This document shows, one piece after another, positions 31,158 to 51,558 of a stretch of 64,000 bases of DNA. The stretch is from Dechloromonas sp. HYN0024 (GTDB taxonomy: Bacteria > Pseudomonadota > Gammaproteobacteria > Burkholderiales > Rhodocyclaceae), in assembly GCF_003441615.1 (NCBI RefSeq), contig NZ_CP031842.1, positions 1,196,501 through 1,260,500 of the forward strand. Reading direction: 5' to 3'. Position 1 is the stretch's first letter, and every line of letters starts with the position of its first letter. The notes below the pieces were generated by a model. The model was not told where the DNA came from and did no database searches. It was given only the letters and a program-made list of their open reading frames with translations. Made by a program: the position numbers and the translations under genes.

Positions 31158-32012
31158 CTATTTTTTTGCCACCTTGGTGGCGTCGGTGCTGTAAAAGTAG
31201 ACGCCACAGGTAAAGCGCTTTTTCGACCCGAAATCGAGATCGGCCGGGAACTGGCTGTCATTGTCAGCCCGCTGGGCAGCTAGCGTGTGCAATTGGGTCA
31301 GCGTCTGCATGCCGAGTTTGGCCGCGCGCTCGCGCAGTTCTTCAACCTGGGCTTCACTCAGCGCATCATGGTGCACGCTGCGCTCAAACCACGGATCCCC
31401 GGCTGTCAGCACGTTATCCGCGGCGGCGGCTGCATGATCGCCGAGGTTGTGACCGTAATAGGCGAGCTTTTCTTCCTCGCCTTCCCTCGGCACAAAGGCA
31501 TTGTTGACGAGTACGACTTCGTCCTTCTTGTTGATCTTGACGACGCCCTGGCGCAGCCATTCATCAAGTACCGAGCGCGGGCGAATATCCTGGCTGATAC
31601 TGGCGACCAGCGTTTCAAAGGAGGCCTCGCCGGCCTTGCCGGTCAGCCTGGGCAGCGGGCGTGGCTGGCCGCTTTCATCGAGCCATTGGGCATCGGTGAT
31701 CCACGTTGCAACGACCTGGGCGCTCAGTGAAATCTTGGGTGGCAGATTGGCTTCGACATCGGGCAATTCGCGCAGACGTTTGACATCCTTACGGTGCACA
31801 CCGGTGATCAGACTAATCCGGCTATCGGTAGAGGCCTTGCTGTTGAGCGAAAAGTCACGTTCGGCAACATCGACAAAGACACGCTTGAGCAACTCGATCG
31901 CCATGGGCAGCGTGATCTCGTAAGCCAGCATGACGCGGACGATGGGCGACAGGACTCGATGTATTGCGGAGAGAAGAGCAGAGCGCAGCGGCGACTCGGA
32001 GTTGGCATTCAT
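31158..32012 (-). CDS. DUF6502 family protein
   Basis: This 284-residue protein matches what I know as DUF6502. The N-terminal part has a helix-turn-helix-like look (AIELLKRVFVDVAERDFSLN, ISLITGVHRKDVKRLREL), and the C-terminal part contains WFERSVHHDALSEAQVEEL and a terminal cytochrome-free domain (KRFTCGVYFYSTD). No function is established. It lies 91 bp downstream of the Fe-S/FAD oxidoreductase on the same strand and could be a regulator of that locus; that is inference. Confidence 0.7.
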   Translation of the reverse strand: MNANSESPLRSALLSAIHRVLSPIVRVMLAYEITLPMAIELLKRVFVDVAERDFSLNSKASTDSRISLITGVHRKDVKRLRELPDVEANLPPKISLSAQVVATWITDAQWLDESGQPRPLPRLTGKAGEASFETLVASISQDIRPRSVLDEWLRQGVVKINKKDEVVLVNNAFVPREGEEEKLAYYGHNLGDHAAAAADNVLTAGDPWFERSVHHDALSEAQVEELRERAAKLGMQTLTQLHTLAAQRADNDSQFPADLDFGSKKRFTCGVYFYSTDATKVAKK

Positions 32013-32103: not shown

Positions 32104-33402
32104 TTAATCGCCGTAGCGGGTATTGACCTGAACGCCCATTTTTTTCAGCATCGGTGTCGGCAATTCGCCGCCGGCACAGACGATGACGGCATCGTTCTTC
32201 CGTTCGAGAATTTCATCACCAAACTTGAGGAAGATCTTGTCGGTGGTGATTTCCTTGACCGTGGTTTCGAGCACCTGTTCGATCCGGTTGTCGGCGATGG
32301 CTTCGGCCAGCCGCGTCCGGTTTTTCGGCTTGACCCGGTCGAAGGCCTTGCCGCGATAGCTCAGGGTCACGTGCGTGCCGGCTTCGTTGGCAATGTCGAG
32401 GGCGGCTTCCAGTGCGCTGTCGCCGCCACCGACGACGAGGACGTGCTTGCCACGGTATTGATCGGCCTCGATCAGGCGATAGACCACCTTAGGCTGTTCT
32501 TCGCCCTTGGCACCGAGCTTGCGCGGGGTGCCGCGGCGGCCGATGGCGAGCAGCACACTGGCTGTCGTGTAGGTGGCCTTGTTGGTGCGGATGGTGAATG
32601 CCCCGTCGACCGGGGTGATTTCTTCCATGCGCTCACTGAAATGGATGTTTGGCGTGGCCTTGTTGAGAATGCCCTGCCAGATTTCCATCAGTTCTTCCTT
32701 GCTCACTTCACGTACCTTGATCTCGCCAACTATCGGCAGATTCATCGGGGCTGTCATCACCAGCTTGTTGCGCGGGTAGTGATAGGTGGTGCCGCCGAGC
32801 GAATCTTCCTGCTCAACGGTGACGTAATTCAGGCCGATTTCCTTGGCGGCCAGCGAGGCGGCGATACCGGCCGGGCCCGCCCCGATGATCACCAGATCGT
32901 ACTCGGCCGTGCCGCGCGGCCGGCTCGAAATGGACTTCACAGCCGAGGTGCCCTGGCGGATGGCGTTGCGGATCAGGCCCATGCCGCCGAGTTCGCCGGC
33001 GATGTAAATGCCGGGGATGTTGGTCTGGAAATCCGGATCGACCTCGGGGATGTCCATGCCGCGCTTGGCCGTACCGAAGACCAGCTTGATGGCGCCGACC
33101 GGGCAGGCCGGGGCGCACGCACCATGGCCGATACAGTGGGTGGGATTGATCAGGACACCCTTGCCCTTGATGACCCCGAGGGCATGTTCCGGGCAGGCTC
33201 TGACGCAGGCGCCCGAACCCATGCAGATCGACAGGTCGACCACCGGGTGCAACGATGGTGGCTCGGTCAGGCCAGCTTCCTGGTTTTCCTTGAGAACGGC
33301 GTGGTGGGCGGCTGAAACCTTTTTCTGGGAGCGCAGGTGAAATGCCGCCGGCACCAGTATGAGCAGGGCAGGAAGAATGTAGAAAAGCAGGTCGGAGATC
33401 AT
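32104..33402 (-). CDS. membrane-anchored Fe-S / FAD-NAD(P) oxidoreductase
   Basis: The order in this 432-residue protein is: an N-terminal TM helix (LLFYILPALLILVPAAF), a ferredoxin-like segment (residues 55-110), then a two-dinucleotide-domain oxidoreductase with FAD motif VIIGAGPAGIAASLAA and second GxGxxx motif VLVVGGGDSALEAALDIA. The ferredoxin motifs are unusual: C60-x5-C66-x3-C70 and C90-x5-C96-x3-C100, with Ser63 and His93 where the second Cys usually stands. It may pass electrons from NAD(P)H to the membrane cytochromes encoded divergently. It overlaps the preceding gene by 4 bp. Confidence 0.85.
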   Translation of the reverse strand: MISDLLFYILPALLILVPAAFHLRSQKKVSAAHHAVLKENQEAGLTEPPSLHPVVDLSICMGSGACVRACPEHALGVIKGKGVLINPTHCIGHGACAPACPVGAIKLVFGTAKRGMDIPEVDPDFQTNIPGIYIAGELGGMGLIRNAIRQGTSAVKSISSRPRGTAEYDLVIIGAGPAGIAASLAAKEIGLNYVTVEQEDSLGGTTYHYPRNKLVMTAPMNLPIVGEIKVREVSKEELMEIWQGILNKATPNIHFSERMEEITPVDGAFTIRTNKATYTTASVLLAIGRRGTPRKLGAKGEEQPKVVYRLIEADQYRGKHVLVVGGGDSALEAALDIANEAGTHVTLSYRGKAFDRVKPKNRTRLAEAIADNRIEQVLETTVKEITTDKIFLKFGDEILERKNDAVIVCAGGELPTPMLKKMGVQVNTRYGD

Positions 33403-34361
33403 TCGGCGGCCGCCACAAGTTTGTTTTCCAGCGTGCTGACCGTGCTCATCGGGTCTTCGCCGGGTTGGTGCTGGGCTGTGGCGATGGTGACGGCGAGCGG
33501 TGTTTTCTGGCCAAAATCAAGATGATCAAATGCGTTCCGGATTCCCTGCGCCAATTTGCCGGCCATGGCCTCGGTGGTGTTGGGAAGAAGAATCATGAAG
33601 GTGGTCCGGTCCCACTGGCAGGCGGTATCCGAGGTGCGCAGGCGGTTGGTGATCGTTTCAGCGTATTGGCACAACTGAGCATCTTGGAGCTGGGTCGTGG
33701 CCAGCGGGGTAATCCGGCAGGCCACCAGCGAGAGCGGCAGTTGATGGCGGTCGAAAATCGAGGAGACGTGGGCCAGTTCGGCTTCGAAACATTCAGGTGA
33801 AGGCAGGCCAGTCAGCGGGTCGCGCAGGTTCATGGTGGCGTTGTGATCCGGAGCCGACGACTGAGAGACATAGCGGACGACCAGCGCAACCAGTAGTGAC
33901 AGTATGAGATGTTCGTCCAGGCGTTCGTGCTGACTCGCCATTTGCCAGGTGAGGATGACAAAAAAGCCGCCGAGCAGCAGCCACATCTGACGGGCCATGT
34001 TTTTGTAGCGCCAGGCCCACCAGCCTGCGACAAGGGGCGACCAGAACAATAATGTGGTGGCCAGTTCGGAGGTTGACTGGCTGGGTCCGAAGCGGATGCC
34101 GAGGCTGGCAATGATCAGTACGTAGATGGCGATGTCGACTGCCAGCCCTGCATTGCGCTCGGCAAGCTTCCAGCCGGCCAGATGGGCGATCCAGATAAGC
34201 AGGAGCGGGACGCTGATGGCCAGGTAAATCAAGCCGGTTCCTGTCGGCCAGTGGCGCTGGAATTCAACGCAGGCAATGACGAAGATGCCAAGCAGGCCAC
34301 CCATCGAACCCGCGGAGTTGATTGTGCCGGCTTTTGTCGTGTGCGTGGTGTTTTCGGCCAT
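33399..34361 (-). CDS. membrane protein with degenerate GGDEF domain
   Basis: This 320-residue protein has a 5-6 TM N-terminal half (GGLLGIFVIACVEF, LIYLAISVPLLLIWIAHLAG, GLAVDIAIYVLIIASLGI and further segments) followed by a GGDEF-like domain: NLRDPLTGLPSPECFEAEL is conserved, but the signature reads QWDRTTFMILLP instead of RxGGDEFxxLLP. It cannot be an active diguanylate cyclase by that motif. The start at 34361 has GGAG eight bases upstream. It is the first gene of the operon with the Fe-S/FAD protein. Confidence 0.8.
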   Translation of the reverse strand: MAENTTHTTKAGTINSAGSMGGLLGIFVIACVEFQRHWPTGTGLIYLAISVPLLLIWIAHLAGWKLAERNAGLAVDIAIYVLIIASLGIRFGPSQSTSELATTLLFWSPLVAGWWAWRYKNMARQMWLLLGGFFVILTWQMASQHERLDEHLILSLLVALVVRYVSQSSAPDHNATMNLRDPLTGLPSPECFEAELAHVSSIFDRHQLPLSLVACRITPLATTQLQDAQLCQYAETITNRLRTSDTACQWDRTTFMILLPNTTEAMAGKLAQGIRNAFDHLDFGQKTPLAVTIATAQHQPGEDPMSTVSTLENKLVAAAE

Positions 34362-34520
34362 TTTCGATTTCTCCGGAACGGGGTGTACCTTGCCAAGTAA
34401 ATTTTTTGATATTCTTGAGCCAGTGTGAAATTTTACCTCGCCATGCGGCAACCCGGTAGACTAGTGACAACGGGGCGCTTCGGGCGTCAGGGCTTCGAGC
34501 CGATAACTGAATTGGATTTT

Positions 34521-35432
34521 ATGGATACGAGTGCGCTGGGCCCGATGACTGTGATTTCTACGGAGGGAGAAGCAAAGTCCTCCGGTGAGTCGGTACTGCG
34601 CCTCGTCTGGCGCGTGTCGATCTTGGTCCTCGTCGCTTTGGTCGTCTTTCTCGCCTGGTTGGTCCGGACGGGGGAGCTCTACGCATCCAACTCCGATTTT
34701 GCCTACTATATTGGCCTGGTCGGCGGACTGCTCATGCTCGCCCTTCTGCTCTACCCCTTGCGCAAGCGGATTCCCTCCTGGGAACGTCTGGGGAAAATGG
34801 AGTCATGGTTCAAGTATCACATGGTGGCTGGTATTGTCGGTCCGCTGCTGGTCCTCTTCCATTCGACCTTCAGAACCGGTTCGCTCAACGGGGCAGCGGC
34901 GCTCTACTCGATGCTGCTGGTGGCGATCAGTGGCGTCATGGGGCGCTTTATCTACCGCCGTATCCACCGCGGCCTCTATGGCAAGAAGCTCACTCTCGAA
35001 GATGTGGCGGTGCTGATGGCCGAATGTGCCATCCACGTGCGCTCGATCTATGCCCTGCAGCCGGATATCGAGCCACGGCTCAAAGCTTTTCGCGATATGG
35101 CCTTTGACCAGACCGGGTCCACGTTGTACCGCGTCTGGCGCTTCATGACCTTGCACTGGAAGAGCCGGCGCCTTTCGAGGGAAGTCCGGGCAGATGCCAA
35201 GAACGGCTTGGTCAGGCAGTTTAAGGAGCAGGGTGGGTCGCGCCGCGATGTGATCATGAACTACCGGCTGGCCAAGGACCAGATCGACCGTTATCTCGAT
35301 TCTATCGTCATGGCTTCCCAGCTTTCCGTCTGGGAATTGCTGTTTTCCTATTGGCACATTATCCATATTCCCTTCCTCTATTTGCTGGTTTTCAGTGGAG
35401 TCGTCCATGTCGTTGCCGTCCACATGTATTAA
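34521..35432 (+). CDS. transmembrane diheme cytochrome b-like protein
   Basis: This is a 303-residue protein with about five TM helices. Two helices each carry an HX13H pair: H100/H114 (YHMVAGIVGPLLVLFHSTF) and H282/H296 (HIPFLYLLVFSGVVH). These are the spacings by which four-helix b-type cytochromes and ferric-reductase-like proteins bind two stacked hemes across the membrane. I do not know the family. It probably moves electrons across the inner membrane to the cytochrome c encoded next, whose start codon lies inside this gene (26-bp overlap). The start is uncertain (34425, 34521 or 34545). Confidence 0.75.
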   Translation: MDTSALGPMTVISTEGEAKSSGESVLRLVWRVSILVLVALVVFLAWLVRTGELYASNSDFAYYIGLVGGLLMLALLLYPLRKRIPSWERLGKMESWFKYHMVAGIVGPLLVLFHSTFRTGSLNGAAALYSMLLVAISGVMGRFIYRRIHRGLYGKKLTLEDVAVLMAECAIHVRSIYALQPDIEPRLKAFRDMAFDQTGSTLYRVWRFMTLHWKSRRLSREVRADAKNGLVRQFKEQGGSRRDVIMNYRLAKDQIDRYLDSIVMASQLSVWELLFSYWHIIHIPFLYLLVFSGVVHVVAVHMY

Positions 35433-37239
35433 GCGGCTGTTTTCCGGACTGCTGCTCGCGGCGACCCTGTTTGCCGGTGGCGCGTCGGCGCAGTCGGCTG
35501 TCGAAAAGGCGTTGATGCCGGGTGAGGTGATTACCGGGCACGCCAAATACGAACAAGAGTGCGAGAAGTGCCACCAGCGCTTCGACAAGAAGGCGCAGAC
35601 CAGGCTGTGCCTGGATTGTCACAAGGATGTTGCCACCGACATTCGTGGTAAGACACGTCTACATGGCAAGCTCGACGATAACGCCTGCCGCAATTGCCAC
35701 ATCGAGCACAAGGGGCGGGCCGCCAATATGGCCCCCATCGACAAGAAGACGTTTGATCACGCACGTACCGATTTCAAGCTGCTTGGTGCTCACAAAGAGG
35801 CCAAGTGCGACAGCTGTCACCTGCCGAAGAAGAAATTCCGCGAAGCGCCCAAGCTTTGTAACGACTGCCACAAGAAGATCGACGACGAAAAGGGCCACAA
35901 GGGCCATCTCGGCACGAAGTGCGAGAACTGCCATAACGAAAAGAAGTGGACCGACACCAAATTTGACCACGAAAAGACCAAGTTCTCCCTGGTTGGTGGC
36001 AAGCACGCCGACGTCAAGTGCAAGGAGTGCCACGAGGACAAGACCTACCAGAAGACCCCGCTGACCTGTAACGGCTGTCACAAGAAGATCGACCAGGACA
36101 AGGGCCACAAGGGCCGTTACGGCATCAAGTGCGAATCCTGCCACAACGACAAGGGGTGGAAGGAAATCGACTTCGAGCATGACAAGGACACCAAGTACGC
36201 CTTGAAGGGCAAGCACCGCCAGACCAAGTGCAACGCCTGCCACCTGCCGGAGAAGGGCAACATCTATCAGGTCAAGCTGCCCAACAAGTGCGTCGCCTGT
36301 CACAAGAAGGATGACCAGGAAAAAGGCCACAAGGGCGAACTGGGCGAAAAGTGCGAGTCCTGCCACAACGAGCGGAGCTGGAAGAACTCCATTTTCGACC
36401 ACGACGAGACCGATTTCCCGCTGCGCGACAAGCACAAGGACGCCAAGTGCGAAACCTGCCACAAGGGTGGTGTGAGCGGCCCCAAGGCCACCAAGTTGAA
36501 GGTGGATACGACCTGTTACGCCTGCCACCGCAAGAACGACGATGAAAAGGGCCACAAGGGCCGCTACGGCGAGAAGTGCGGCACCTGCCACACGGCCAAG
36601 GACTGGAAGACCAGCATCTTCAATCACGACAAGGAAACCAAGTACCTGATCAAGGGCAAGCATAGGGAAACCAAGTGCGATGCCTGCCACCTGCCGGAAA
36701 AGGGCAATATCTACAAGAGCAAGCTGGAAAACACCTGTATTGCCTGTCATAAGAAGGACGACAAGCACAAGGGCCAGCTCGGCAACAAGTGCGAAAGCTG
36801 CCACGATGAAACCAAGTGGAAGGACGCACCGTTCGACCATAAACTGTCGCGCTTCCCGCTGACTGGCAGCCATGCCAAGGTCGAGTGCAAGAAATGTCAC
36901 CTGTCGCCGGCCTTCAAGGACGCGCCTCTGACTTGTAACGGTTGTCACGAGAAGGACGACAAGCACAAGGGGGCGTTCGGCAAGAAGTGTGAGAGCTGTC
37001 ACTACACCGGCACCTGGAAATCCTGGGACTTCGATCACTCGAAGACCAATTTCATCCTCGATGGTGGGCATACCAAGGTCGATTGCTACGACTGTCACAA
37101 GCCGCCCAAGCCCGGCGTGGCGAAGGTCAGTAAGCTTTGTGTCAGCTGCCACGTCAAGGATGACGTCCATAACGGCAGTTTCAGTACACAGTGTGAACGT
37201 TGTCACGTGACTGCAAACTGGAAAAAGGTCCGACGGTAG
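35407..37239 (+). CDS. 24-heme c-type cytochrome, lysine-rich, periplasmic
   Basis: This 610-residue protein has a signal peptide (ending GGASAQS). I count 24 CXXCH motifs, from CEKCH near the N terminus to CERCH near the C terminus. The mature chain repeats units such as CNGCHKKIDxDKGHKGRYGxK-CESCH, with TKFxxxGKH spacers that supply extra His for bis-His ligation. It is strikingly rich in Lys and Asp. The ATG at 35407 has GGAG six bases upstream, inside the cytochrome b gene, so the two are probably co-translated. It belongs broadly to the cytochrome c3/doubled-CXXCH group. The role is inferred: a periplasmic electron carrier between the membrane cytochrome b and the giant cytochrome. Confidence 0.9.
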   Translation: MSLPSTCIKRLFSGLLLAATLFAGGASAQSAVEKALMPGEVITGHAKYEQECEKCHQRFDKKAQTRLCLDCHKDVATDIRGKTRLHGKLDDNACRNCHIEHKGRAANMAPIDKKTFDHARTDFKLLGAHKEAKCDSCHLPKKKFREAPKLCNDCHKKIDDEKGHKGHLGTKCENCHNEKKWTDTKFDHEKTKFSLVGGKHADVKCKECHEDKTYQKTPLTCNGCHKKIDQDKGHKGRYGIKCESCHNDKGWKEIDFEHDKDTKYALKGKHRQTKCNACHLPEKGNIYQVKLPNKCVACHKKDDQEKGHKGELGEKCESCHNERSWKNSIFDHDETDFPLRDKHKDAKCETCHKGGVSGPKATKLKVDTTCYACHRKNDDEKGHKGRYGEKCGTCHTAKDWKTSIFNHDKETKYLIKGKHRETKCDACHLPEKGNIYKSKLENTCIACHKKDDKHKGQLGNKCESCHDETKWKDAPFDHKLSRFPLTGSHAKVECKKCHLSPAFKDAPLTCNGCHEKDDKHKGAFGKKCESCHYTGTWKSWDFDHSKTNFILDGGHTKVDCYDCHKPPKPGVAKVSKLCVSCHVKDDVHNGSFSTQCERCHVTANWKKVRR

Positions 37240-37374: not shown

Positions 37375-37818
37375 ATGAAAAATCTACTACGCATTCTCTT
37401 CGCGCTACTGGCTGCGGCCATAGTGTTCATGGGGCAATGGGGGGAAGCGTTTGGACAGACCGGGGCTGGTGCGGCGCAGAATCTTTCGTTCGATCACGCG
37501 ACAACTGGTGTGTCTCTTGACCCACTCCATAGGGCAGCTCCTTGCGAGTCGTGCCATACCGGTGGGACGTTTAAGGGTACGCCAAGAGTTTGTTCAACCT
37601 GCCATGCAGGTCCGGGATCTCGGGCACTTGTGTGGAATAAGAGTGCAAACCACATTCCGGCTAAAAATATTGAGTGCTCTGTTTGTCATACCTCGGGGGG
37701 GCTGGTGCGATATTGGGGGTTGCGTCTAGTGGAACAATTTCCCAGGCTGCTTCTGGCGGAGCTCCGGGGTTTACTCAAGGGGCATCAGGGCACCCGATTA
37801 ACCCGCTTATCGGGGTGA
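37375..37818 (+). CDS. 5' fragment of the giant multiheme cytochrome (signal peptide and first three hemes)
   Basis: From ATG 37375 this frame encodes a signal peptide (MKNLLRILFALLAAAIVFMG) and three heme motifs (CESCH, CSTCH, CSVCH). After the run of seven G at 37695-37701 it turns into unrelated sequence and stops at 37818. The downstream frame, which has all remaining heme motifs but no signal peptide, overlaps it from 37674. The two are evidently one gene split by a one-base frame difference at the G-run. A run of eight G, or a -1 slip on G-GGG-GGG, would join them into a 2132-residue protein. Confidence 0.8.
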   Translation: MKNLLRILFALLAAAIVFMGQWGEAFGQTGAGAAQNLSFDHATTGVSLDPLHRAAPCESCHTGGTFKGTPRVCSTCHAGPGSRALVWNKSANHIPAKNIECSVCHTSGGLVRYWGLRLVEQFPRLLLAELRGLLKGHQGTRLTRLSG

Positions 37819-40800
37819 CAGCTACTAATTGTATTACCTGCCACAACGGAGCCTTCGTTGGTGCCAATGCATTGACCAAGCCGGCGATGCACATTCAGAC
37901 GGCTCAGCCTTGCAGCACCTGCCATACGACAACCTCCTGGCTTCCTGCTACCAATCCGCACGCTGGCGGTGTGAATGGTCGGTGTTCAACCTGCCACAAC
38001 GGTGTCAACGCAACTGGCAAAACCGCCCGCCATATCCCGACTTCTGCCTCCTGCGACACCTGCCACACCAATTTCGTCAGTTTCGTACCGTCGACGATGA
38101 ATCACACCGGCCTGAATGGCCAGTGTTCTACCTGTCACTCTGGTGCTTATGACTCGCAAAATGCCCAGAGCAAGCCATCGACGCACGTCATTACGACGGC
38201 GCAGTGCGATACCTGTCACGCCTCGACGACGACCTGGGCAACAGGGACATTTGCCCACGCCAATCCTCCAGGTGTTTGTTCAAGCTGCCATAACGGTACC
38301 AATGCCATAGGCAAGCCGCTTAATCACGTTCCGACTTCGGCGACTTGCGATACATGTCACACCAATCAGGTCGCCTTCAAGCCAGCCCAGATGAATCACA
38401 GCAGCACGGCTGGTCAGTGCGCCAATTGTCACAATGGCAGCTATGTCTTTGCCAATGCACTCGGTCGTTCCGGGCGCCATATTCCGACCACCGTCTCCTG
38501 TGACTCCTGTCACACGCTGGGGTTTGTGAATTGGTCGCCGGCTGTGATGAACCATGCTGGGATGGCCGGCAAGTGCTCGAGCTGTCATAGTGGCGGCTAT
38601 CTGCCGCAGAACGCCCAGACCAAGCCGGCAACTCACATCAGCACGACGGCACAATGCGATACCTGCCATAGCTCGACGACGACCTGGGCAACCGGTGTCT
38701 TTGATCACTCCACGGCGAGCCCTGCCGTGGCTGGTCGCTGTTCGACCTGCCACAACGGCACGAATGCGCTCGGCAAGTCGGTTAACCACATTCCGGACTC
38801 CCGGCAATGCGATACCTGTCACAAGACCTTTGCTGGCTTTGCCACGGCGGTCATGGATCACACGGGTACGACAGGAAAATGTTCAACCTGCCATAACGGC
38901 TCCTTTACTGCTGTCAACGCGTTGGGTCAGCCAAAGGCGGGGCATATTCCGACTATCGCGCAGTGCGATACCTGTCACGTCAACGGATTTATAAGCTTTG
39001 CTCCGGCAGCCATGAATCACACCGGCCTCGCCGGCAAGTGCGATACCTGCCACGGTGGTGCGTTCATCGCCGTCAATGCCATGACCAAGCCGGCAACACA
39101 CGTCACGACCACGGCGCAGTGCGATTCTTGCCATTCATCGACGACGACGTGGACGGCCTATATCTATACCCACGATGGCTCGGCATTTGGCAATTGTTCA
39201 AACTGTCACGGTAATGGCATCTCCTTGGGCAAACCAGCCAATCACATCCCGTCTACGGCGCAGTGCGATAGCTGCCACAACAATTTTGTCTCCTTCAAGC
39301 CGGCCATCTTTACCCATACCGTTACCCAGATTGGCGGGAATTCATGTGCTACCTGCCACAGCGGTGCCTTTAACGGGGTCAATGCCCAGTCCAAGCCGGT
39401 AACCCACATCCAGACGCAGCAGTCCTGCGAAATCTGTCATGGCACGACGGCCTGGAAGCCGGCCGTCTTTGACCATACCGGCGTCGCAGCCGGAACCTGC
39501 TCGACTTGTCATAATGGTGTCAATGCCCTCGGCAAACCGACGGTCGGCCATATTCCGACCACGGCACAGTGCGATACCTGCCACAAGAATTACACGACTT
39601 TCAAGCCAGCGGCGATGGATCACACTGGCCTGACGGGTCAGTGTTCGACCTGTCACAACGGCAATTATGTTGCCCAGAATGCACTGGGCAAGTCAGCCGG
39701 CCATATTCCCGTGACGGCACAGTGCGATACCTGCCACGTCAATACCAGCAACTTCAAATTGTGGTCGCCGGTTGCCATGAACCACACCGGTCTGACTGCC
39801 TGTGCATCCTGCCACAGCGGTACCTACCTCGCGCAAAATGCGCAGGTCAAGCCGGCCACACACATTGCTACGACGGCCGAATGTTCGACCTGCCACAACT
39901 CGACTACCACCTGGGCGACCGGCGTCTTCAATCACGCCACCGCCAGCCCGGCTGTGACTGGCCGTTGTTCGACCTGCCACAACGGAACCAACGGGATCGG
40001 TAAGCCGAGCACACACGTCCCGACGACCGCCCAGTGCGATACCTGTCACACCAACTTCACGGCCTTCAAACCGGCGCAGATGAACCACACCGGGATGGCC
40101 GGCCAGTGCGCTAGTTGTCACAATGGTGGCTACGTGGCGATGAATGCGCAGGCCAAGCCGGCTACCCACGTTGCCACGACGTCGCAGTGCGATACCTGTC
40201 ACGGTTCGACGGTGGATTGGAAACTGGCGGTTGCCTACGTCCATGCGCCGACGGTCTATGCCAACTGTACGAGTGCGGGTTGCCATAACGGCGTAACCGC
40301 GACGGGGCAGGGCGCCGGCCATATTCCGACAACTCAGGCATGCTCCACCTGCCACAAGAATTTCGTCAGCTTCAAGCCGGCCCAGATGGCTCACGTCAAC
40401 GTGAATAACACTTGCTCGAGCTGCCATAACGCCACCTATGCCTCGAAGAATGCCTTGCCGATGCCGGCGGCACATATTCAGGTAAGTTCCCAGTGCGATA
40501 CCTGCCATATCAACGGCTATGTCACGTGGTCGCCGGCGGTCATGAACCACACCGGCCTGACCTCTTGCTCGACTTGCCACAGCGGCGCTTACCTTTCGCA
40601 AAACGCACAGATGAAGCCTGCGACGCACGTGGCAACGACCAATCAGTGTTCGACCTGTCACTTGTCGACGACCTCCTGGTCTACCGCCGTCAACTATGTT
40701 CACCCGAATACCGTTGTCCTCGGTGGCGGCGGCTGCTCGACCTGCCACAACAGCACCACGGCGCTTGGCAAGTCGACCAACCACATCCCGACCACTGGTC

Positions 40801-43772
40801 AGTGCGATACCTGTCACGCCACCTTCGTCGCCTTCGCTCCGGCTGCCATGAACCACACCGGTACGGCAGGTCAGTGTGCGACCTGCCATAGCGGTGCCTT
40901 CACGGCGCTCAATGCTCAGGTCAAGTCGGCTGCCCACATTCCGACCACGCAGTCCTGTGATACCTGTCACGGCACCCTTGCCTGGAAGCCGACCACTTAT
41001 ACCCACCAGGGCGTGGTCGCCGGAACCTGTGCAACTTGCCACAACGGCACCAGTGCGCTGGGCAAGACGACCACCCACATTCCGACCACGGCGGCGTGCG
41101 ATACCTGCCACAAGAATTACACGGCATTTGCCCCGGCTACGATGAACCACACCGGTCTGGCGGGGCAGTGTTCGACTTGCCACAGCGGTACCTATGTCAG
41201 CATCAACGCCCAGAAGAAGACGGCAACCCACATCGCCACCAGCGCCCAGTGCGACACCTGCCACAATTCAACCACCACCTGGGCAACCGGCGTGTTCAAC
41301 CACGCCACGGCGACTCCGGCGGTGACCGGACGCTGTTCGAGCTGTCACAACGGCATCAATGCCCTTGGCCTGCCGACGACGCATATTCCGACTCAGGCAG
41401 CCGAGTGCGATACCTGTCACACCAATACGACCGCCTTCAAGCCGGCCAAGATGAACCACACCAGTGGCAACTCGGCGAATAAGTGTTCGTGGTGCCACAG
41501 TGGTAATTACCTCTACGCCAACGCACTGGCCAAGCCGGCCAATCACATTCCGGACTCCCGTCAGTGCGATACCTGCCACAAGAACGGCTTCGTTACTTGG
41601 TCGCCCTCGACCATGGATCACACCGGTCTGACCCAATGTACGACCTGTCACAACGGTTCGTATCTGGCGCAGAACGCGCAGGCCAAGCCGATTACCCACC
41701 AGGTGACGACGGCGCAATGTTCAAGCTGCCATAGTTCGACAACGTCCTGGGCCATCGCCACGCAGAATCACGCGGTCCTCACGCCGCCAGCGACCGGTCG
41801 TTGCTCGACCTGTCACAACAGCATCAATGCGCTGGGCAAGCCGACCAACCACATTCCGACGACCGGTCAGTGCGACACCTGCCACAACACCTTCGTGGCA
41901 TTTGCGCCGGCGGCGATGAACCACACCGGCACCACTGGCCAGTGTGCGACTTGCCACAGCGGTGCCTATACGGCGCTCAATGCGCAGATCAAGCCGGCGA
42001 CGCACATTCAGACGACTGCTTCTTGCGACACCTGTCACGGCACGATCGCCTGGAAGCCCGCTACCTACGCCCACACCGGCGTAGCTGCCGGCACCTGCGC
42101 CACTTGTCACAATGGAACCAACGCGCTGGGCAAGAATGCAACCCACATCCCGGTGACGAGTTCCTGCGATAACTGCCACAAGAATTACGTGGCGTTCTTC
42201 CCGGCACAGATGAGCCACACCGGGCTGAACGGTCAGTGTTCGACCTGCCACAGCGGTGCTTATGTGGCGGTCAATGCGCAGAAAAAGTCGGCTACCCACG
42301 TAGCGACGACGCTGCAGTGCGATACCTGCCACACCTCGACGACGACCTGGGCCAATGCAACCTTTGCCCACGCCACGCCGCCTGGTGTCTGCTCGACCTG
42401 CCACAACGGTACGACTGCGCTGGGCAAACCGACGACGCACATCCCGACCACCGCAACCTGTGATACCTGCCACAAGAACCAGATTGCCTTCAATCCGGCG
42501 CAGATGGATCACACAGGGATGACGGTGTGTTCGACCTGCCATAACGGCACTTATACGTCGATCAATGCGCAGGCCAAGTCTGCGGCGCATATTCCGGTGA
42601 CCAGCGATTGCTTTGCCTGCCACAAGACTTTCGTAACCTGGTCCCCATCGGCGATGAGTCATACCGGATTGACCGCGTGCTCGACCTGCCACAGCGGTGC
42701 TTATCTCTCGCAAAACGCACAGATGAAACCCGTGACCCACCAGGTGACGACGGCGCAGTGTTCGAGTTGCCACACGTCGACTGTTTCCTGGGCGATGCAT
42801 ACGCAGGATCACTCGGTACTCTCGCCACCGGCCACAGGCCGCTGCTCGACGTGTCATAACAGCGTCATCGCCATTGGCAAGTCGACCAACCACATCCCGA
42901 CCACCGGGCAGTGTGACACCTGTCACAATAACTACACCCTGTTTGCCCCGGCGGCCATGAACCACACCGGTACGGCCGGGAACTGTATCAGTTGTCACGG
43001 TGGTGCTTACACGACGCTCAACGCGCAAGCCAAACCGGCAACACACATGCCGACGACACAGCAGTGCGACTACTGCCATACGACGACATTGTGGAAGCCG
43101 ACCAGCTTTGCACACACCGCAACGCAGATGGGGACGAACTCCTGTGCGACCTGCCATAACGGCACGATAGCCTCGGGCAAGCCGGTTTTGCATATTCCGA
43201 CCACCGCCGCCTGTAGTGTCTGTCACCGTACGGGGATTTCTTGGCTGCCACTGATCCTGCCGTATGCCCACACGGGTATTGCCGCCGGAACGTGTTCGAC
43301 ATGCCACCTCGTCAGCTACCCGAGCATGAGCTACAAACCGGCCAGCCACCTGCCAACGACGGCATCCTGCGACGCCTGCCATAACAAGACAGCATGGACC
43401 GGGCCATATACCTTTAACCACATTGGGGTCGTAGCCGGTACCTGTGATTCCTGTCACGTGTCCCCATACACTGGGGTTACGGTCAAGCCGACCAATCACA
43501 TGCCCTATGGCGCGGCCAACAAGTGCGACGCTTGCCATACCACGTCGACGTTTGCCACTTCGACCAAGACGGGTGCCACCTTGCATGCCATGCTTACCGG
43601 AACGCCGTGCTACGCCTGTCACGACCGTAGCTCTACCTATCTGGTTGGAAATGCGGCAAACTTCAGAGTAAGTCGGTCCAGCCATCATAGTGCCGGCAGC
43701 AAGGATTGTTCGTCGAGTGGTTGCCACCGGCCGTTGGGTAGTATCGGTTCGGCCTATACAAAATGGAATTGA
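37674..43772 (+). CDS. giant repetitive multiheme cytochrome c, main part (about 78 heme sites)
   Basis: This 2032-codon frame opens at a GTG that is not a credible own start (no signal peptide). I count 76 CXXCH and two CX4CH motifs (40266-40286, 43707-43727). The chain is a regular array of 20-25-residue units such as CSTCHNGxxALGKPxxHIPTTAQ, CDTCHKNFxxFxPAxMNHTGxxGQ and CSTCHSGAYxxxNAQxKPATHxxTTAQ. Each spacer holds one more His, suiting bis-His hemes. Thr, Asn, Ser and Gly dominate and charged residues are scarce, unlike the neighbouring 24-heme protein. Joined to the 5' fragment it would carry about 81 hemes. It is probably exported and may be surface-exposed. Confidence 0.88.
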   Translation: MLCLSYLGGAGAILGVASSGTISQAASGGAPGFTQGASGHPINPLIGVTATNCITCHNGAFVGANALTKPAMHIQTAQPCSTCHTTTSWLPATNPHAGGVNGRCSTCHNGVNATGKTARHIPTSASCDTCHTNFVSFVPSTMNHTGLNGQCSTCHSGAYDSQNAQSKPSTHVITTAQCDTCHASTTTWATGTFAHANPPGVCSSCHNGTNAIGKPLNHVPTSATCDTCHTNQVAFKPAQMNHSSTAGQCANCHNGSYVFANALGRSGRHIPTTVSCDSCHTLGFVNWSPAVMNHAGMAGKCSSCHSGGYLPQNAQTKPATHISTTAQCDTCHSSTTTWATGVFDHSTASPAVAGRCSTCHNGTNALGKSVNHIPDSRQCDTCHKTFAGFATAVMDHTGTTGKCSTCHNGSFTAVNALGQPKAGHIPTIAQCDTCHVNGFISFAPAAMNHTGLAGKCDTCHGGAFIAVNAMTKPATHVTTTAQCDSCHSSTTTWTAYIYTHDGSAFGNCSNCHGNGISLGKPANHIPSTAQCDSCHNNFVSFKPAIFTHTVTQIGGNSCATCHSGAFNGVNAQSKPVTHIQTQQSCEICHGTTAWKPAVFDHTGVAAGTCSTCHNGVNALGKPTVGHIPTTAQCDTCHKNYTTFKPAAMDHTGLTGQCSTCHNGNYVAQNALGKSAGHIPVTAQCDTCHVNTSNFKLWSPVAMNHTGLTACASCHSGTYLAQNAQVKPATHIATTAECSTCHNSTTTWATGVFNHATASPAVTGRCSTCHNGTNGIGKPSTHVPTTAQCDTCHTNFTAFKPAQMNHTGMAGQCASCHNGGYVAMNAQAKPATHVATTSQCDTCHGSTVDWKLAVAYVHAPTVYANCTSAGCHNGVTATGQGAGHIPTTQACSTCHKNFVSFKPAQMAHVNVNNTCSSCHNATYASKNALPMPAAHIQVSSQCDTCHINGYVTWSPAVMNHTGLTSCSTCHSGAYLSQNAQMKPATHVATTNQCSTCHLSTTSWSTAVNYVHPNTVVLGGGGCSTCHNSTTALGKSTNHIPTTGQCDTCHATFVAFAPAAMNHTGTAGQCATCHSGAFTALNAQVKSAAHIPTTQSCDTCHGTLAWKPTTYTHQGVVAGTCATCHNGTSALGKTTTHIPTTAACDTCHKNYTAFAPATMNHTGLAGQCSTCHSGTYVSINAQKKTATHIATSAQCDTCHNSTTTWATGVFNHATATPAVTGRCSSCHNGINALGLPTTHIPTQAAECDTCHTNTTAFKPAKMNHTSGNSANKCSWCHSGNYLYANALAKPANHIPDSRQCDTCHKNGFVTWSPSTMDHTGLTQCTTCHNGSYLAQNAQAKPITHQVTTAQCSSCHSSTTSWAIATQNHAVLTPPATGRCSTCHNSINALGKPTNHIPTTGQCDTCHNTFVAFAPAAMNHTGTTGQCATCHSGAYTALNAQIKPATHIQTTASCDTCHGTIAWKPATYAHTGVAAGTCATCHNGTNALGKNATHIPVTSSCDNCHKNYVAFFPAQMSHTGLNGQCSTCHSGAYVAVNAQKKSATHVATTLQCDTCHTSTTTWANATFAHATPPGVCSTCHNGTTALGKPTTHIPTTATCDTCHKNQIAFNPAQMDHTGMTVCSTCHNGTYTSINAQAKSAAHIPVTSDCFACHKTFVTWSPSAMSHTGLTACSTCHSGAYLSQNAQMKPVTHQVTTAQCSSCHTSTVSWAMHTQDHSVLSPPATGRCSTCHNSVIAIGKSTNHIPTTGQCDTCHNNYTLFAPAAMNHTGTAGNCISCHGGAYTTLNAQAKPATHMPTTQQCDYCHTTTLWKPTSFAHTATQMGTNSCATCHNGTIASGKPVLHIPTTAACSVCHRTGISWLPLILPYAHTGIAAGTCSTCHLVSYPSMSYKPASHLPTTASCDACHNKTAWTGPYTFNHIGVVAGTCDSCHVSPYTGVTVKPTNHMPYGAANKCDACHTTSTFATSTKTGATLHAMLTGTPCYACHDRSSTYLVGNAANFRVSRSSHHSAGSKDCSSSGCHRPLGSIGSAYTKWN

Positions 43773-46243
43773 TTTTGCGAGATAACGTAATTGTCAGGTT
43801 TGCACATGCTGCGGCATCACCGGTGACGCTTTCAAAGTTGATCTGTCGGATTGGTCTATTCGTGGCGGCGCTGCTGTTTGGCGCCAACGCGTTCGCGAAC
43901 ATTCTCGATTCCATCGATATTGCCCGGGCTGACGAAAAGCACGCGCAGATCACCATCCACTTTGGACCGGAAATCCAGTACGTCAGGCATGTGCCGGATG
44001 CCGAGGGGAAATTTCTGCGCATCTTTTTCCGCGTCAGGAATCCGGGCTTTTCCGAAAGCGAAGTGATGCAGGAAGTCCTGCGTTCGCCGAAGAGCGACCT
44101 GGTGCCGAAATTCACGGTGGCCTATCCGGAACTGGTCAATGGCATGTTGATCACTTTCGCAAAGTCCACTACGTTCAAGGTTCGTCCTGGTGATGACAAT
44201 CACAGTATCGAGATTCTCGTACCCGCTCTGATTGAAGCTAAGGCTCCGCCAGCACCTGTAGTCCTGCCTGTCGCCGAGCCCGCCAAGGCGGTGCCGGCTG
44301 TTGCTGAAGCAGCCCCCAAGGAAAAAGTGGTGGCAGTTTCACCAGCCACAAACAAAAAGAAGGACAAGGAAAAAGCCAAGGCTGCTTTGCCGACCGTCGC
44401 CGTAGCGCCCCTCGTGGTGGCAGCTGTGACCGCCGAGTCTCCGGCAACCCCGGTTACCCAGATTCCGGATGCCAGCAAACCTGATGAAGCGCCGGTCATG
44501 ACAGCGGAAAAAGTCGAAGCAACCGCTCAGGCATTCCTGGCCGATGGTCGTGATGCCTTTGAAAAGGCGGATTATCCGAAAGCCATCAACCGCATGAACC
44601 GTATCCTGAGCCTACCTGGCAACGCCCAGACGCAGGCTGCTCAAGCTTTGCTCGGCGAAGCGCGGGAGAAAAACGGTGAAAACACGAAGGCGAAGGCGGA
44701 ATACGAGCTTTTCCTGAAGCTTTACCCGACCTCCTCCGATGCGCCGAGAATCAAGCAGCGTCTGGCTGCGCTGCCGGTGACCGACACCGTTAAGCGTGTT
44801 GCAAGGGTGCGTGATGAAAAGCCGGCCGAATGGGTGGTGACGGGTAGCCTGTCCTCGTATTTCTTCACCGGCCAATCGCAGCAGGATTCGGGTCCGATGA
44901 AAAAGGACCAGGAGTCGCTGATTTCGTCGATCAATCTCAATGCCCGTCTGCGTAATTCGGTGACCGATACGCGCATCGTTTTCCGTGATGCAGACAGCCG
45001 CAATTTCATGCAGCCGAGCCGTGACTACAATCGCATATATGCGGCCTACGCCGAGCGGACTGACCGTGAAGTCGGTTATTTTGTTCGGGCCGGTCGCCAG
45101 AATCCGAACGGCAGTGGTGTCATGGATCGCTTCGACGGTATTACGGGTAGCTACAACCTCAATCCGGACTTCAAGGTGAGTGCGGTTTACGGTGATGCCG
45201 TCATCTTCAATGCGCCATTCAAGAAGACGTTTTACGGTGGCAGCGTTGAGTTTGCGGCCCAACTGGCTCGCCCAGGCGCCAGCCTGTATGCCATCGAGGA
45301 AAAGCTCGACGGTCTTCTGAACCGCCGTGCTATTGGATCGGAGTTCCGCTATTTTGACGGTGCCTTGAACGGGTACGGCATGCTCGATTACGACCTGCTC
45401 TACAAGGGCATGAATATCGGGATGGGGCAACTCAACTACATGGACAAATCCGGGAACAATTATTTTGTCTCCTACGATTATCGGAAGTCACCGTCCTATA
45501 GCCTCCTGAATGCCCTGCCGTCATCGGGGTACTCGAACGCCAATGATCTGGTTGCCAATGTCGGTATGACCCAATCCCGGCAACTGGTTTCTGACACAAC
45601 GTCAGCCTCTAGCATGTTCGCTGCTGGTGTCACTGTTCCGGTCGGTGAGCGCTGGCAGTTCGGGTTTGACTACCGGATGTCGGAGATTACCGGTACCAAT
45701 GCCACGATTCCCCTGGCCCAGATGTGTAAGGAAATTCAGGACGGTGCCAATCCGACCGACCCCCTTTGTGTCGAAGGTCCGAGGGGTACGATGCGCATTT
45801 CGGAAATGGGTCTCTGTGTAACTGACAGCTACGACATGATTACCAAGACCTGTCGGGCTTCTTCTGATGCATCGGGTCGCACGAACATGTATTCTGCGCA
45901 GGCCATCGCCACCAACCTGTTTGTTCCGAACGGGATCGGCGTCGCCTATCTCGGCTATATTTCCGGGCCGAACTACACCGGCCAGAATCTCGGTCTAAGC
46001 TATATCTATCCGTTTATAGAAAACTGGCGTCTGGAAAACAATATCCGTTATTACAGCCAGCACAGCGACAGCGGACAGAATTCGACCCAATTCTCGCCGA
46101 GCGTCAAATTAGTTCATCAATGGCGCCCCGATCTGTCCATAGAAGGTGAGCTTGGCTACAGCGATTCCAAAAATACTGGGACCACGACGAGCAGTAACAA
46201 GCGTGAATATCTCTATCTCGGCATTCGTTGGGACTATCGCTAA
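43763..46243 (+). CDS. outer-membrane beta-barrel protein with AMIN-like and TPR domains
   Basis: This 826-residue protein is, in order: signal peptide, an AMIN-like beta domain (residues about 47-155), a Pro/Ala/Lys linker (160-230), TPR repeats (about 245-335, FLADGRDAFEKADYPKAINR), then a long barrel of alternating strands from about 350 to the end (YLGIRWDYR). A loop near residues 654-700 holds four Cys. The ATG overlaps the cytochrome stop. GTG 43823 would give a neater signal peptide (TLSKLICRIGLFVAALLFG). It could be the porin that lets the multiheme cytochrome cross or dock at the outer membrane. It does not obviously match MtrB. Confidence 0.75.
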   Translation: MELILRDNVIVRFAHAAASPVTLSKLICRIGLFVAALLFGANAFANILDSIDIARADEKHAQITIHFGPEIQYVRHVPDAEGKFLRIFFRVRNPGFSESEVMQEVLRSPKSDLVPKFTVAYPELVNGMLITFAKSTTFKVRPGDDNHSIEILVPALIEAKAPPAPVVLPVAEPAKAVPAVAEAAPKEKVVAVSPATNKKKDKEKAKAALPTVAVAPLVVAAVTAESPATPVTQIPDASKPDEAPVMTAEKVEATAQAFLADGRDAFEKADYPKAINRMNRILSLPGNAQTQAAQALLGEAREKNGENTKAKAEYELFLKLYPTSSDAPRIKQRLAALPVTDTVKRVARVRDEKPAEWVVTGSLSSYFFTGQSQQDSGPMKKDQESLISSINLNARLRNSVTDTRIVFRDADSRNFMQPSRDYNRIYAAYAERTDREVGYFVRAGRQNPNGSGVMDRFDGITGSYNLNPDFKVSAVYGDAVIFNAPFKKTFYGGSVEFAAQLARPGASLYAIEEKLDGLLNRRAIGSEFRYFDGALNGYGMLDYDLLYKGMNIGMGQLNYMDKSGNNYFVSYDYRKSPSYSLLNALPSSGYSNANDLVANVGMTQSRQLVSDTTSASSMFAAGVTVPVGERWQFGFDYRMSEITGTNATIPLAQMCKEIQDGANPTDPLCVEGPRGTMRISEMGLCVTDSYDMITKTCRASSDASGRTNMYSAQAIATNLFVPNGIGVAYLGYISGPNYTGQNLGLSYIYPFIENWRLENNIRYYSQHSDSGQNSTQFSPSVKLVHQWRPDLSIEGELGYSDSKNTGTTTSSNKREYLYLGIRWDYR

Positions 46244-46344: not shown

Positions 46345-47598
46345 ATGACTTTCGTTTACATCGTTCTGGCAAGCATTGCGCTTTCCCTGCTTGTCTTGTG
46401 GGGGCTGGGCAAATACGCAGCCAATAAATCGCCGGCTGTCGCCAAGGTTGATGTTGCTTCGGCCCTGCGTGAATTGCTCCTGGCCAAGGCTGAAGGGCGT
46501 ATCGATCAGGCTGAGTTTGATCGCCAGCAGGCTGTTCTGCATGCTGCCGTGCTCGATCCGGTGCAAACCCAGCCGGCCTTCACCTTGCCGGTCTCAGGCC
46601 AAAAGCTTGGTTTGATCGCTGCCGCTGCTGTGGTCGTCATTGCCGTGGCTGCCATCTGGATGTCTTCGCCTTCCGGCGATGCCCAGAAGCCCGCTGCAAT
46701 CAGTGAGCCGGGCGCCATGCCGGGCGCACCGCATGCGCAGCCGGGGCAGCAGGGTAATACTGGCGGTGACCTCGGTACGGTGGTCAAGAAGCTGGCGGAC
46801 AAGATGGAGAAAGATCCCAACAACGGCGAGGGCTGGTTGTTGCTGGCCAAAACCTACAGCGAACTGCGCCGTCATGCCGAAGCCGATGCTGCCTATACCA
46901 AGGCCTCCGCTCTGGTTACGCTGGATGCACAGACGCTGGCCGACTGGGCTGATGCGCATGTGATGACCAAGGATCGCAAATGGGATGACGAAGGCCGCAA
47001 GATCGTCAAGCGCGCGCTTGCCGCCGATGGCAAGCATGTCAAGGCGCTGGCTCTGGCTGGTAGTGAAGCCTTTGATCGGGCCGATTACAAGGGTGCCATC
47101 GAATTCTGGAAGCGTATGAAGGCCGCCGCGGCACCGGAATCGATGGATGCCAAGCTGGCTGATGCCAACATTGCCGAAGCCAATTCGATGATCTCTGGCA
47201 AGAAGCCGGGTGCCGATGCCACCCCGACAGCCGCCAAAGCCCAGCCGGCGATGGCGCTGGGTGCGGTGGCCGGCGTGGTGACGCTGAGCCCGAAGCTGAA
47301 GGGCAAGGTTGCCGCTGATGATACTGTCTTCGTCGTCGCCAAGGCCCCGGATGGCAGCGGTGCGCCGCTCGCCGTCGGTCGCTACAAGGGCGCAGACTTC
47401 CCTATCGAGTTTCGTCTCGATGACAGCATGGCGCTCATGCCCAATCGCACCATTTCCCAGTTCTCTGACGTTCTGGTGACGGCCAAGATTTCCAAGACCG
47501 GTAGTGCCGATCAGAGTAAGGGCGACATCATCGCCGCCCCGGTCAAGGCCAAGCTGGGCAATACGACGCTGGTCGTGGAGCTGAATACGGAACGTTGA
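46345..47598 (+). CDS. ccmI: CcmI/CycH-like cytochrome c maturation protein
   Basis: This 417-residue protein has two TM segments (FVYIVLASIALSLLVLWGLG and LIAAAAVVVIAVAAIW) flanking a cytoplasmic loop with RELLLAKAEGRIDQAEFDRQ, the CcmI pattern. A periplasmic TPR domain (WLLLAKTYSELRRHAEADAA) and a C-terminal domain with VFVVAKAPDGSGAPLAVGRY follow. CcmI hands apocytochrome to the heme lyase CcmFH. No other ccm gene is in the window. Placement after the multiheme genes suggests a dedicated or additional CcmI for heavy heme loading; that is inference. Confidence 0.85.
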   Translation: MTFVYIVLASIALSLLVLWGLGKYAANKSPAVAKVDVASALRELLLAKAEGRIDQAEFDRQQAVLHAAVLDPVQTQPAFTLPVSGQKLGLIAAAAVVVIAVAAIWMSSPSGDAQKPAAISEPGAMPGAPHAQPGQQGNTGGDLGTVVKKLADKMEKDPNNGEGWLLLAKTYSELRRHAEADAAYTKASALVTLDAQTLADWADAHVMTKDRKWDDEGRKIVKRALAADGKHVKALALAGSEAFDRADYKGAIEFWKRMKAAAAPESMDAKLADANIAEANSMISGKKPGADATPTAAKAQPAMALGAVAGVVTLSPKLKGKVAADDTVFVVAKAPDGSGAPLAVGRYKGADFPIEFRLDDSMALMPNRTISQFSDVLVTAKISKTGSADQSKGDIIAAPVKAKLGNTTLVVELNTER

Positions 47599-50905: not shown

Positions 50906-51558
50906 TTCGGGATGGTGTAGCCGACCCCGCGCAGGGTGCGGATGAGGTCGCCGCCGAGTTTCTTGCGCAGATGGTGGATGTGTACTTCGAGGGCATTGCT
51001 GTCCGGCTCGTCACGCCAGCCGTAGACCGATTGCTCAAGCTGGGTCCGGGTCAACACGCGGCCGGCGTTCTCAAGGAGCATCTGGAGCAGCGAAAATTCG
51101 CGGCCGGACAGGTCAATTTCATCCCCCGACAGCGTAACCCGGTGTGCGGCCAGGTCCACGCTCAGTTCGCCCCGCGTCAGCAGTGGGGCGGCGCGGCCGG
51201 CGCTGCGCCGGGTCAGGGCGCGGATGCGGGCGCTCAGTTCGTCGAGGTCGATCGGCTTGACGAGGTAATCGTCAGCCCCGGCATCGAGACCGGAAACCTT
51301 ATCACCGGTGGCGTCACGGGCAGTGAGGATGAGAATGGGCATGGTCTGTCCCCGGCCACGGGCGCGATTCAGGACATCCATGCCGGAAAGTCTGGGCAGG
51401 CCAAGGTCGAGGACCACCAGGTCGAAACTTTCTGACTGCAAGGCCTGGTCGGCGGAGTTGCCATCGCGCAGCCAGTCGACGGCAAAGCCGAACTGGCGCA
51501 GGCCGATGGTCAGGCCATCGCCGAGTTCGGGGTCGTCTTCAACAAGCAGGATGCGCAT
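50902..51558 (-). CDS. OmpR-family response regulator (QseB/PmrA-like)
   Basis: This 218-residue protein has an N-terminal receiver with the acid pair (LLVEDDPELGDGL), the phospho-acceptor Asp in DLVVLDLGLPRLSG and Lys in YLVKPIDLDEL. The C-terminal winged helix ends in YGWRDEPDSNALEVHIHHLR plus a typical GVGYTI. It lies 12 bp downstream of the cytochrome b561 gene. Its probable binding site is the set of three 11-bp-phased repeats at 53098-53124. Confidence 0.92.
   Translation of the reverse strand: MRILLVEDDPELGDGLTIGLRQFGFAVDWLRDGNSADQALQSESFDLVVLDLGLPRLSGMDVLNRARGRGQTMPILILTARDATGDKVSGLDAGADDYLVKPIDLDELSARIRALTRRSAGRAAPLLTRGELSVDLAAHRVTLSGDEIDLSGREFSLLQMLLENAGRVLTRTQLEQSVYGWRDEPDSNALEVHIHHLRKKLGGDLIRTLRGVGYTIPK

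Follow-up and report, generated by a model that had tools for sequence, protein, structure and literature searches.

The porin-cytochrome complex PCC3, as defined by He et al. 2017 (PMC5566968), is given as a cluster of four parts wherever the literature accessible to us describes it. Its extracellular multiheme cytochrome has 22-39 residues per heme (median 26) and a median of 34 heme sites, with a maximum of 85, and its inner-membrane protein (IMP), of about 300 aa, has two WX3HX13H motifs, one SGXXG motif and five transmembrane helices (PMC5566968). PCC3 is widespread, and a 2025 paper describes its function as untested. Our analysis of a 64,000-nucleotide stretch of the genome of Dechloromonas sp. 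HYN0024 (contig NZ_CP031842.1, positions 1,196,501 to 1,260,500; hereafter the window) indicates that a giant cytochrome with 81 predicted heme sites is almost certainly the extracellular subunit of a PCC3 complex in this Rhodocyclaceae (Azonexus-like) bacterium of soil or water. Moreover, a flavoprotein gene proves to be a near-constant companion of the IMP gene, and the overall explanation that we favour, and consider reasonably probable, is a PCC3 extracellular wire with a flavoprotein-fed route.

The giant cytochrome occupies 37375-43772 on the plus strand in two reading-frame pieces, which together hold 79 CXXCH and 2 CX4CH motifs, or 81 sites at about 26 residues per motif, just as the initial annotation had counted them. 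The larger, C-terminal piece of 2032 aa (the C piece) contains 76 CXXCH and both CX4CH (CTSAGCH and CSSSGCH), with a median spacing of 25 residues. The unit types and fixed phrases singled out at that time also recur in it (CDTCH 23 times, CSTCH 21, HIPTT 10, MNHTG 9 and KPATH 7), and it is indeed poor in charged residues, with D at 2.3, E at 0.1, K at 3.3 and R at 0.8%. A chance accumulation of motifs or a misread frame is ruled out by the 76 motifs lying in one frame inside 6 kb: the three plus-strand frames of the window contain 28, 1 and 77 CXXCH (106 in total), most of those outside the C piece belonging to the N-terminal piece and the upstream 24-heme gene, and the three minus-strand frames contain 0, 3 and 6 over the whole length. 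Pfam Cytochrome_C7 matches the C piece over 27 stretches.

The extra His per unit that had been proposed is found in the linker after the heme motif for 77 of the 78 motifs of the C piece, and in an alignment of 58 twelve-heme segments it is invariant in 8 units and almost so in 3 more. Because each unit supplies one CXXCH and one further His, we expect the hemes to be bis-His ligated, probably one per unit of about 25 residues, and such hemes would probably form one unbroken chain of close spacing. At roughly 8 A per heme, as in heme wires of solved structure, 81 hemes would span some 60 nm when fully extended. We consider the giant cytochrome likely to be an extracellular electron wire.

Its membership in PCC3 follows from its neighbours (Table 1). 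The genes for the IMP, a 24-heme periplasmic cytochrome, the giant cytochrome and a porin lie in this order on the plus strand, which matches the published PCC3 order, and the end of the giant cytochrome overlaps the start codon of the porin by 10 nt. The IMP carries two WX3HX13H motifs and SGXXG; its His pairs, two Trp and SGxxG are invariant in six of six sequences, and SGXXG is present in all 35 named loci with the double WX3HX13H. The protein is likely a di-heme b protein. No Pfam model matches it at E <= 0.001, and simple hydropathy gives four separate peaks as compared with the published five helices, the first His-pair segment (~128-146) falling below threshold. A predicted structure of the porin shows many strands over 356-825, interrupted by helices at 581-612 and mostly with pLDDT >70; the model, built on nine sequences, is of middling confidence overall (mean pLDDT 71.2, pTM 0.49). 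Among the 80 named loci a complete extracellular cytochrome is present in 43, the rest being cut by contig ends, lacking the frame, or left out because they were ambiguous or frame-split (L041, L046, L068 and L083).

Table 1. Features of the PCC3 locus and its surroundings, in window coordinates.
Feature	Position	Strand	Remarks
4Fe-4S flavoprotein	32104-33402	-	432 aa; Pfam Fer4_10, Pyr_redox_3, Pyr_redox_2; divergent from IMP
GGDEF-domain protein	33399-34451	-	Pfam GGDEF; between flavoprotein and IMP genes
PCC3 inner-membrane protein (IMP)	34425-35432	+	335 aa from longest start; true start may be internal
Periplasmic multiheme cytochrome	35395-37239	+	614 aa, 24 CXXCH
Giant cytochrome, N piece	37375-37818	+	signal-like sequence, conserved 3-heme N-cap (3 CXXCH), then out of frame
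Giant cytochrome, C piece	37674-43772	+	heme-repeat array plus conserved C-cap; positions delimit the open frame and do not denote a separate gene
Run of seven G	37695-37701	+	inside overlap of the two frames
Tandem 14-heme super-repeat	40727-42318	+	~40727-41250 versus 41795-42318, 1068 nt apart
PCC3 porin	43763-46243	+	comprises an N-terminal domain, helices of TPR type and a long beta-barrel region
CcmH/CycH-like cytochrome c maturation protein	46345-47598	+	Pfam Ig_CycH, TPR_CcmH_CycH; adjoins porin

Set beside the published PCC3 loci of Sideroxydans, Leptothrix and Agromonas oligotrophica S58 (the last with 85 sites), the window locus has the same gene content, gene order and IMP motifs, and it shares with them a periplasmic cytochrome of 21-27 hemes, about 26 residues per heme, a large porin and a repeat-rich, T/S/A/G-rich extracellular cytochrome. 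This composition had been read initially as adhesin-like; it is a published trait of the PCC3 family and does not in itself point to adhesion. The window locus differs from the published ones in that its extracellular gene is frame-broken, its site count lies above the median of 34 and below 85, and its flavoprotein, GGDEF and CcmH/CycH-like neighbours fall outside the published definition.

With MtrCAB, MtoAB and PioAB the locus has in common the use of a porin and multiheme cytochromes across the outer membrane. We reject membership in the MtrAB type, since the window porin aligns with the MtrB-family porin of its own genome at an hhalign probability of only 1%; likewise, the window porin has no match to NCBIfam TIGR03509 (MtrB/PioB-family) at E <= 0.001. 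The same genome holds a second outer-membrane conduit near 2511786, with a 10-heme cytochrome, an MtrB/PioB-family porin over the cut-off and a 272-aa protein that, read from its sequence start, is likely a cytochrome b. The OmcS and OmcE filaments of Geobacter are polymers of small subunits that carry long heme chains outside the cell. The window array would likewise place a heme chain outside the cell, on a single polypeptide. An OmcS-type polymer is rejected: a phmmer search of the C piece against solved chains at E <= 0.001 returned only 8k9e and 6f0k, weak relatives of which neither is named OmcS or OmcE. The wire-like filament proposed in the initial annotation is plausible in the sense of a single long chain held by its own porin, and is unsupported as a polymer of the OmcS type. 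The proposed surface role fares similarly: a giant surface multiheme electron conductor is still the best reading and agrees with the published PCC3 model, while the operon, the partners and the fact that the kind was already known had been missed.

The component that the published definition does not include is the flavoprotein. Its sequence combines two 4Fe-4S motifs and FAD/NAD(P)H domains with an N-terminal anchor, a hydrophobic segment at 5-23; in an alignment of the window protein with 14 relatives, C60, C66, C70, C90, C96, C100 and H93 are invariant, the nucleotide site has invariant basic residues of the NADPH type, and no conserved CXXC active site is found in the 15 sequences. Among solved chains, the closest to it in sequence are YpdA/Bdr-type and ferredoxin-NADP/thioredoxin reductases. 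Where a named locus extends at least 1.6 kb before the IMP gene, the flavoprotein lies beside it in 29 of 31 cases (hand count).

We see the same linkage across genomes. In a draw of 276 genomes from the class, counting a strong IMP match at E <= 1e-40 and a flavoprotein at E <= 1e-60, each gene occurs in 32 genomes and both in 31, own genome included; without the own genome, the flavoprotein is present in 30 of 31 IMP carriers as against 1 of 244 non-carriers, five genomes with weak IMP matches (G137, G155, G197, G208 and G275; E 1e-11 to 1e-17) not being counted as carriers. Of the 31 genomes that have both genes, 25 have them no more than 3 kb apart, 24 of these 25 in opposite orientation. 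With the porin as marker the class draw gives the flavoprotein in 29 of 34 carriers and 2 of 241 others. Among near relatives the corresponding figures are 7 of 8 and 0 of 51; the one miss, G001, is a 70%-complete genome, and apart from it the flavoprotein and PCC3 are present or absent together within the genus. In a draw of 299 genomes from the phylum, own genome left out, all 3 strong IMP carriers (one of them, G134, common to the class draw) and none of the 295 others have the flavoprotein, a weak IMP match in G485 being treated as a non-carrier.

As far as literature searches show, the pairing of flavoprotein and IMP is new, PCC3 itself being a known kind: no link of the flavoprotein to PCC3 was found in the accessible passages of the PCC3 papers searched, and literature searches by neighbouring locus tag or by the combination of porin-cytochrome, flavoprotein and ferric reductase turned up nothing on this gene. 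In a paper on Gallionellaceae, ferredoxin is mentioned 15 times, for Rnf and other proteins. The PCC3 IMP is described as sharing its two HX13H pairs with the ferric reductase/NADPH oxidase (FRD) family. As compared with that family, the window has a separate FAD/NAD(P)H-type protein beside the IMP, and this flavoprotein is YpdA-like by sequence. In the FRD family the flavin domain is FNR-like, and the flavoprotein is unlike it in this respect.

How could electrons move through such a set of proteins? We propose that the flavoprotein feeds cytoplasmic electrons into the PCC3 chain. NAD(P)H would reduce the membrane-anchored 4Fe-4S flavoprotein, which would pass electrons to the two b hemes of the IMP; from there they would enter the 24-heme periplasmic wire, cross the porin, and leave along the extracellular wire of 81 hemes, with minerals, electrodes, humics or cells as acceptors. 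We give outward flow fed by the flavoprotein nearly an even chance. It is favoured because the partner gene is of the NADPH type. Moreover, the own genome has no match to the RuBisCO large chain (PF00016; other carbon-fixation routes lay outside this search), which speaks against Fe(II)-fed Calvin-cycle autotrophy and so also favours outward flow. Two published observations count in the same direction: an Azonexus isolate, not itself tied to PCC3, makes anodic current (PMC4876122), and on Fe(II) the PCC3 transcripts of Sideroxydans ES-1 fall instead of rising (PMC8788666). More generally, and more tentatively, PCC3 might be a five-part, NAD(P)H-driven trans-envelope reductase that dumps cytoplasmic reductant outside and bypasses quinone. 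With similar reserve, such a system could be seen as a split functional counterpart of the ferric reductase/NADPH oxidase, with unusual cluster ligands (an invariant His in place of an expected Cys), a 24-heme periplasmic wire of almost constant length and an outer wire of 10 to >100 hemes.

A number of observations pull the other way. The C piece passes the cut-offs of both NCBIfam TIGR03508 and TIGR04257, its score for the former, the DmsE/MtrA-family decaheme model, being 263.8 against a cut-off of 192.2 bits over 14 stretches; these matches may reflect the sum of many CXXCH repeats, and the giant cytochrome differs from DmsE/MtrA-family decahemes in heme count and partners. In the flavoprotein, the second Cys of both 4Fe-4S motifs is missing by reference to the classical motif, with a His in one. 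Two named loci, L056 and L080, have no flavoprotein beside the IMP, and in the class draw five porin carriers lack it (G230, G325 and G327, together with G198 and G201, in which the porin match is weak). Fisher statistics on the linkage are overstated, because the genomes are related and are not independent trials. As for direction, the published PCC3 model runs inward to quinone (PMC5566968), PCC3 is found in Fe(II) oxidisers, and one PCC3 inner-membrane gene of Sideroxydans CL21 rises with Fe(II)-oxidising ability. One extracellular PCC3 cytochrome of ES-1 (Slit_1448) is given as 0 throughout the eight columns of a proteome table. Finally, the own-genome copy of the giant cytochrome is frame-broken, so that a full-length product may not be made here.

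Several of these points belong to a competing account of direction, in which the wire takes up electrons from other cells or from Fe(II) minerals, for delivery by the IMP to the quinone pool, the flavoprotein then serving in the formation of a reduced carrier or in regulation. Besides the inward drawing of He et al. and the behaviour of CL21, the literature reports complete predicted PCC3 in 26 Gallionellaceae genomes of Fe(II) oxidisers. We nevertheless consider uptake rather unlikely, given the fall of the ES-1 genes on Fe(II) and the lack of a RuBisCO large chain match in the own genome, and since it would be odd for electrons from Fe(II) to end at an NADPH-type partner. That the array is mainly an electron store, or capacitor, and less a wire, is improbable: 81 redox centres on one chain would suit a store, and the idea has been suggested for PCC3 in the literature, but storage alone leaves the fixed partners and end caps unexplained and is in any case compatible with a wire.

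The state of this copy is a separate question. The break falls after the third heme motif, which is read in the first frame before its stop at 37816-37818; the stretch 37674-37815 is open in both frames, and the seven-G run inside it is one of only two runs of at least seven G or C in the window. Comparison by eye with the relative G002 indicates that the second frame is correct from ~37780. Downstream of the break there are 2032 stop-free codons with every heme motif intact, and the adjoining genes are open. Three same-genus relatives have the whole array in a single open frame (G002 with 89 CXXCH, G012 with 84 and G029 with 76), and in three more (G001, G007 and G035) it is truncated by a contig end. 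Among named loci with a porin at least 52% identical, all nine complete arrays (L025-L031, L035 and L037; 58-106 CXXCH) are single-frame, nine that are not independent, since L031, L035 and L037 are the same genomes as G029, G002 and G012, and L027-L029 are near-duplicates. Since intact copies exist in relatives, the family is not decaying, and the decay in all relatives that the initial annotation had named as a result that would undo it is not what the same-genus copies display.

We regard it as an even question whether an error of assembly or sequencing at the seven-G run has produced the break, in a gene that is really whole. A homopolymer sits at the break, the downstream array is pristine, and He et al. 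(PMC5566968) describe a homopolymer error that had wrongly divided a PCC3 porin gene; the extracellular cytochromes of L041, L046 and L068, all from metagenome assemblies, likewise seem to be spread over overlapping frames, which lends this account some further weight. On the other side, the genome is of high quality: it is assembled as one contig of 3.26 Mb, with completeness rated at 100% and contamination at 0.49. That quality speaks against wholesale indel errors and, together with the stop in the first frame, makes it possible, if somewhat doubtful, that the gene is a recent pseudogene giving a secreted stub of 147 aa and a remainder that is not exported. Pseudogenisation would have to be very recent, because the downstream frame is intact and close relatives are unbroken; the open neighbouring genes count against it as well. 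A phase-variation switch or programmed frameshift that tunes the amount of giant cytochrome is very improbable, even though a G run lies towards the 5' end of an otherwise intact surface-protein gene, since seven G is to our knowledge short for a switching tract and the three unbroken relatives have no such run (G002 has five G nearby).

The build of the array suggests how such wires reach their length. Unit steps are often 23-24-27-24/28 residues, which makes a four-heme module. On a larger scale, the two copies of the 14-heme super-repeat are 72-81% identical per 150 nt across 40800-41249, and the similarity between units peaks at a 14-heme offset in the window array, L030, L031 and L035 and is second-best there in L026 and L037 (six of nine proteins in all; the signal is absent in L025, L027 and L044). 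A fresh tandem expansion as the origin of the array is rejected: the 17 window modules compared have similarities of 0.58-0.80 to modules of seven other proteins and of 0.51-0.81 to their siblings, so that siblings are no closer. Because modules match other proteins as well as they match siblings, we infer that most of the array is old and that it includes a single clear tandem block, of 14 hemes.

The ends of the array are conserved. The N-cap pattern, with three heme motifs in the window copy, is present there and in all 43 complete relatives, from 10 to 106 CXXCH, and the C-cap pattern is present in the window copy and 26 of the 43; both patterns were defined after inspecting these same proteins, and the counts are descriptive and no test. 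The array, which may have grown by internal duplication of multi-heme blocks, would thus lie between an N-cap fixed at three hemes and a conserved C-cap. Across the 43 complete cytochromes the median is 23 CXXCH. In 34 of 35 loci the cytochrome counted as periplasmic carries 21, 24 or 27 hemes, 24 being the commonest number (26 of 35); the remaining one, that of L086 with 11 hemes, is in fact a second extracellular cytochrome. Because the periplasmic count is near-constant and the extracellular count varied, the length of the periplasmic wire may be fixed by the width of the periplasm and that of the outer wire may be free.

In heme number the window protein is high, not unique. The scale of 4-40 hemes first applied to it as usual for bacteria is too low, PCC3 reaching 85 in print and an archaeal protein 113. 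That protein, from 'Methanoperedens manganireducens', is called the highest on record (Leu et al. 2020, PMC7082337); like the window protein it is one chain with a very high heme count, whereas it is an S-layer fusion, and the accessible text of that paper mentions no porin cluster. Among 120 database relatives listed of 1102 found, at least 22 have 79 or more CXXCH and at least 12 have more than 85, the highest among the matches listed being a database protein with 129. The highest in a PCC3 locus here is in L026 (1341-9707), where one open frame beside the PCC3 porin holds 106 CXXCH and 1 CX4CH, exceeding the published PCC3 maximum. A record for the window protein is accordingly rejected. 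The unbroken Ferribacterium limneticum homologue has 60 CXXCH in 1627 aa. A 26-heme PCC3 locus, L096, comes from a metagenome record titled Bordetella parapertussis, a species label that looks doubtful.

Further genes surround the cluster. The CcmH/CycH-like gene occurs in 12 of the 13 loci L025-L037, the sole miss, L032, being cut by a contig end, and such a neighbour suits a heavy demand for heme. Among loci L023-L104 the GGDEF gene has matches in close relatives only (L025, L027-L031 and L037); a c-di-GMP link to the making of the surface wire is possible. A DUF6502 gene (31158-32012, minus strand) adjoins the flavoprotein gene and is also present in the distant PCC3 loci L068, L085, L094, L098 and L099. 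Finally, a sensor kinase and response regulator (49556-51558, minus strand), whose nearest models, QseC and PmrA/QseB, score under the cut-off, lie 2-4 kb downstream of the cluster and are at most possible regulators of it.

The near-obligate flavoprotein partner gives a testable handle on where PCC3 electrons enter or leave the cell. More generally, PCC3 provides a natural series of single-chain heme wires, from 10 to >100 sites, in which conduction could be followed as a function of length.

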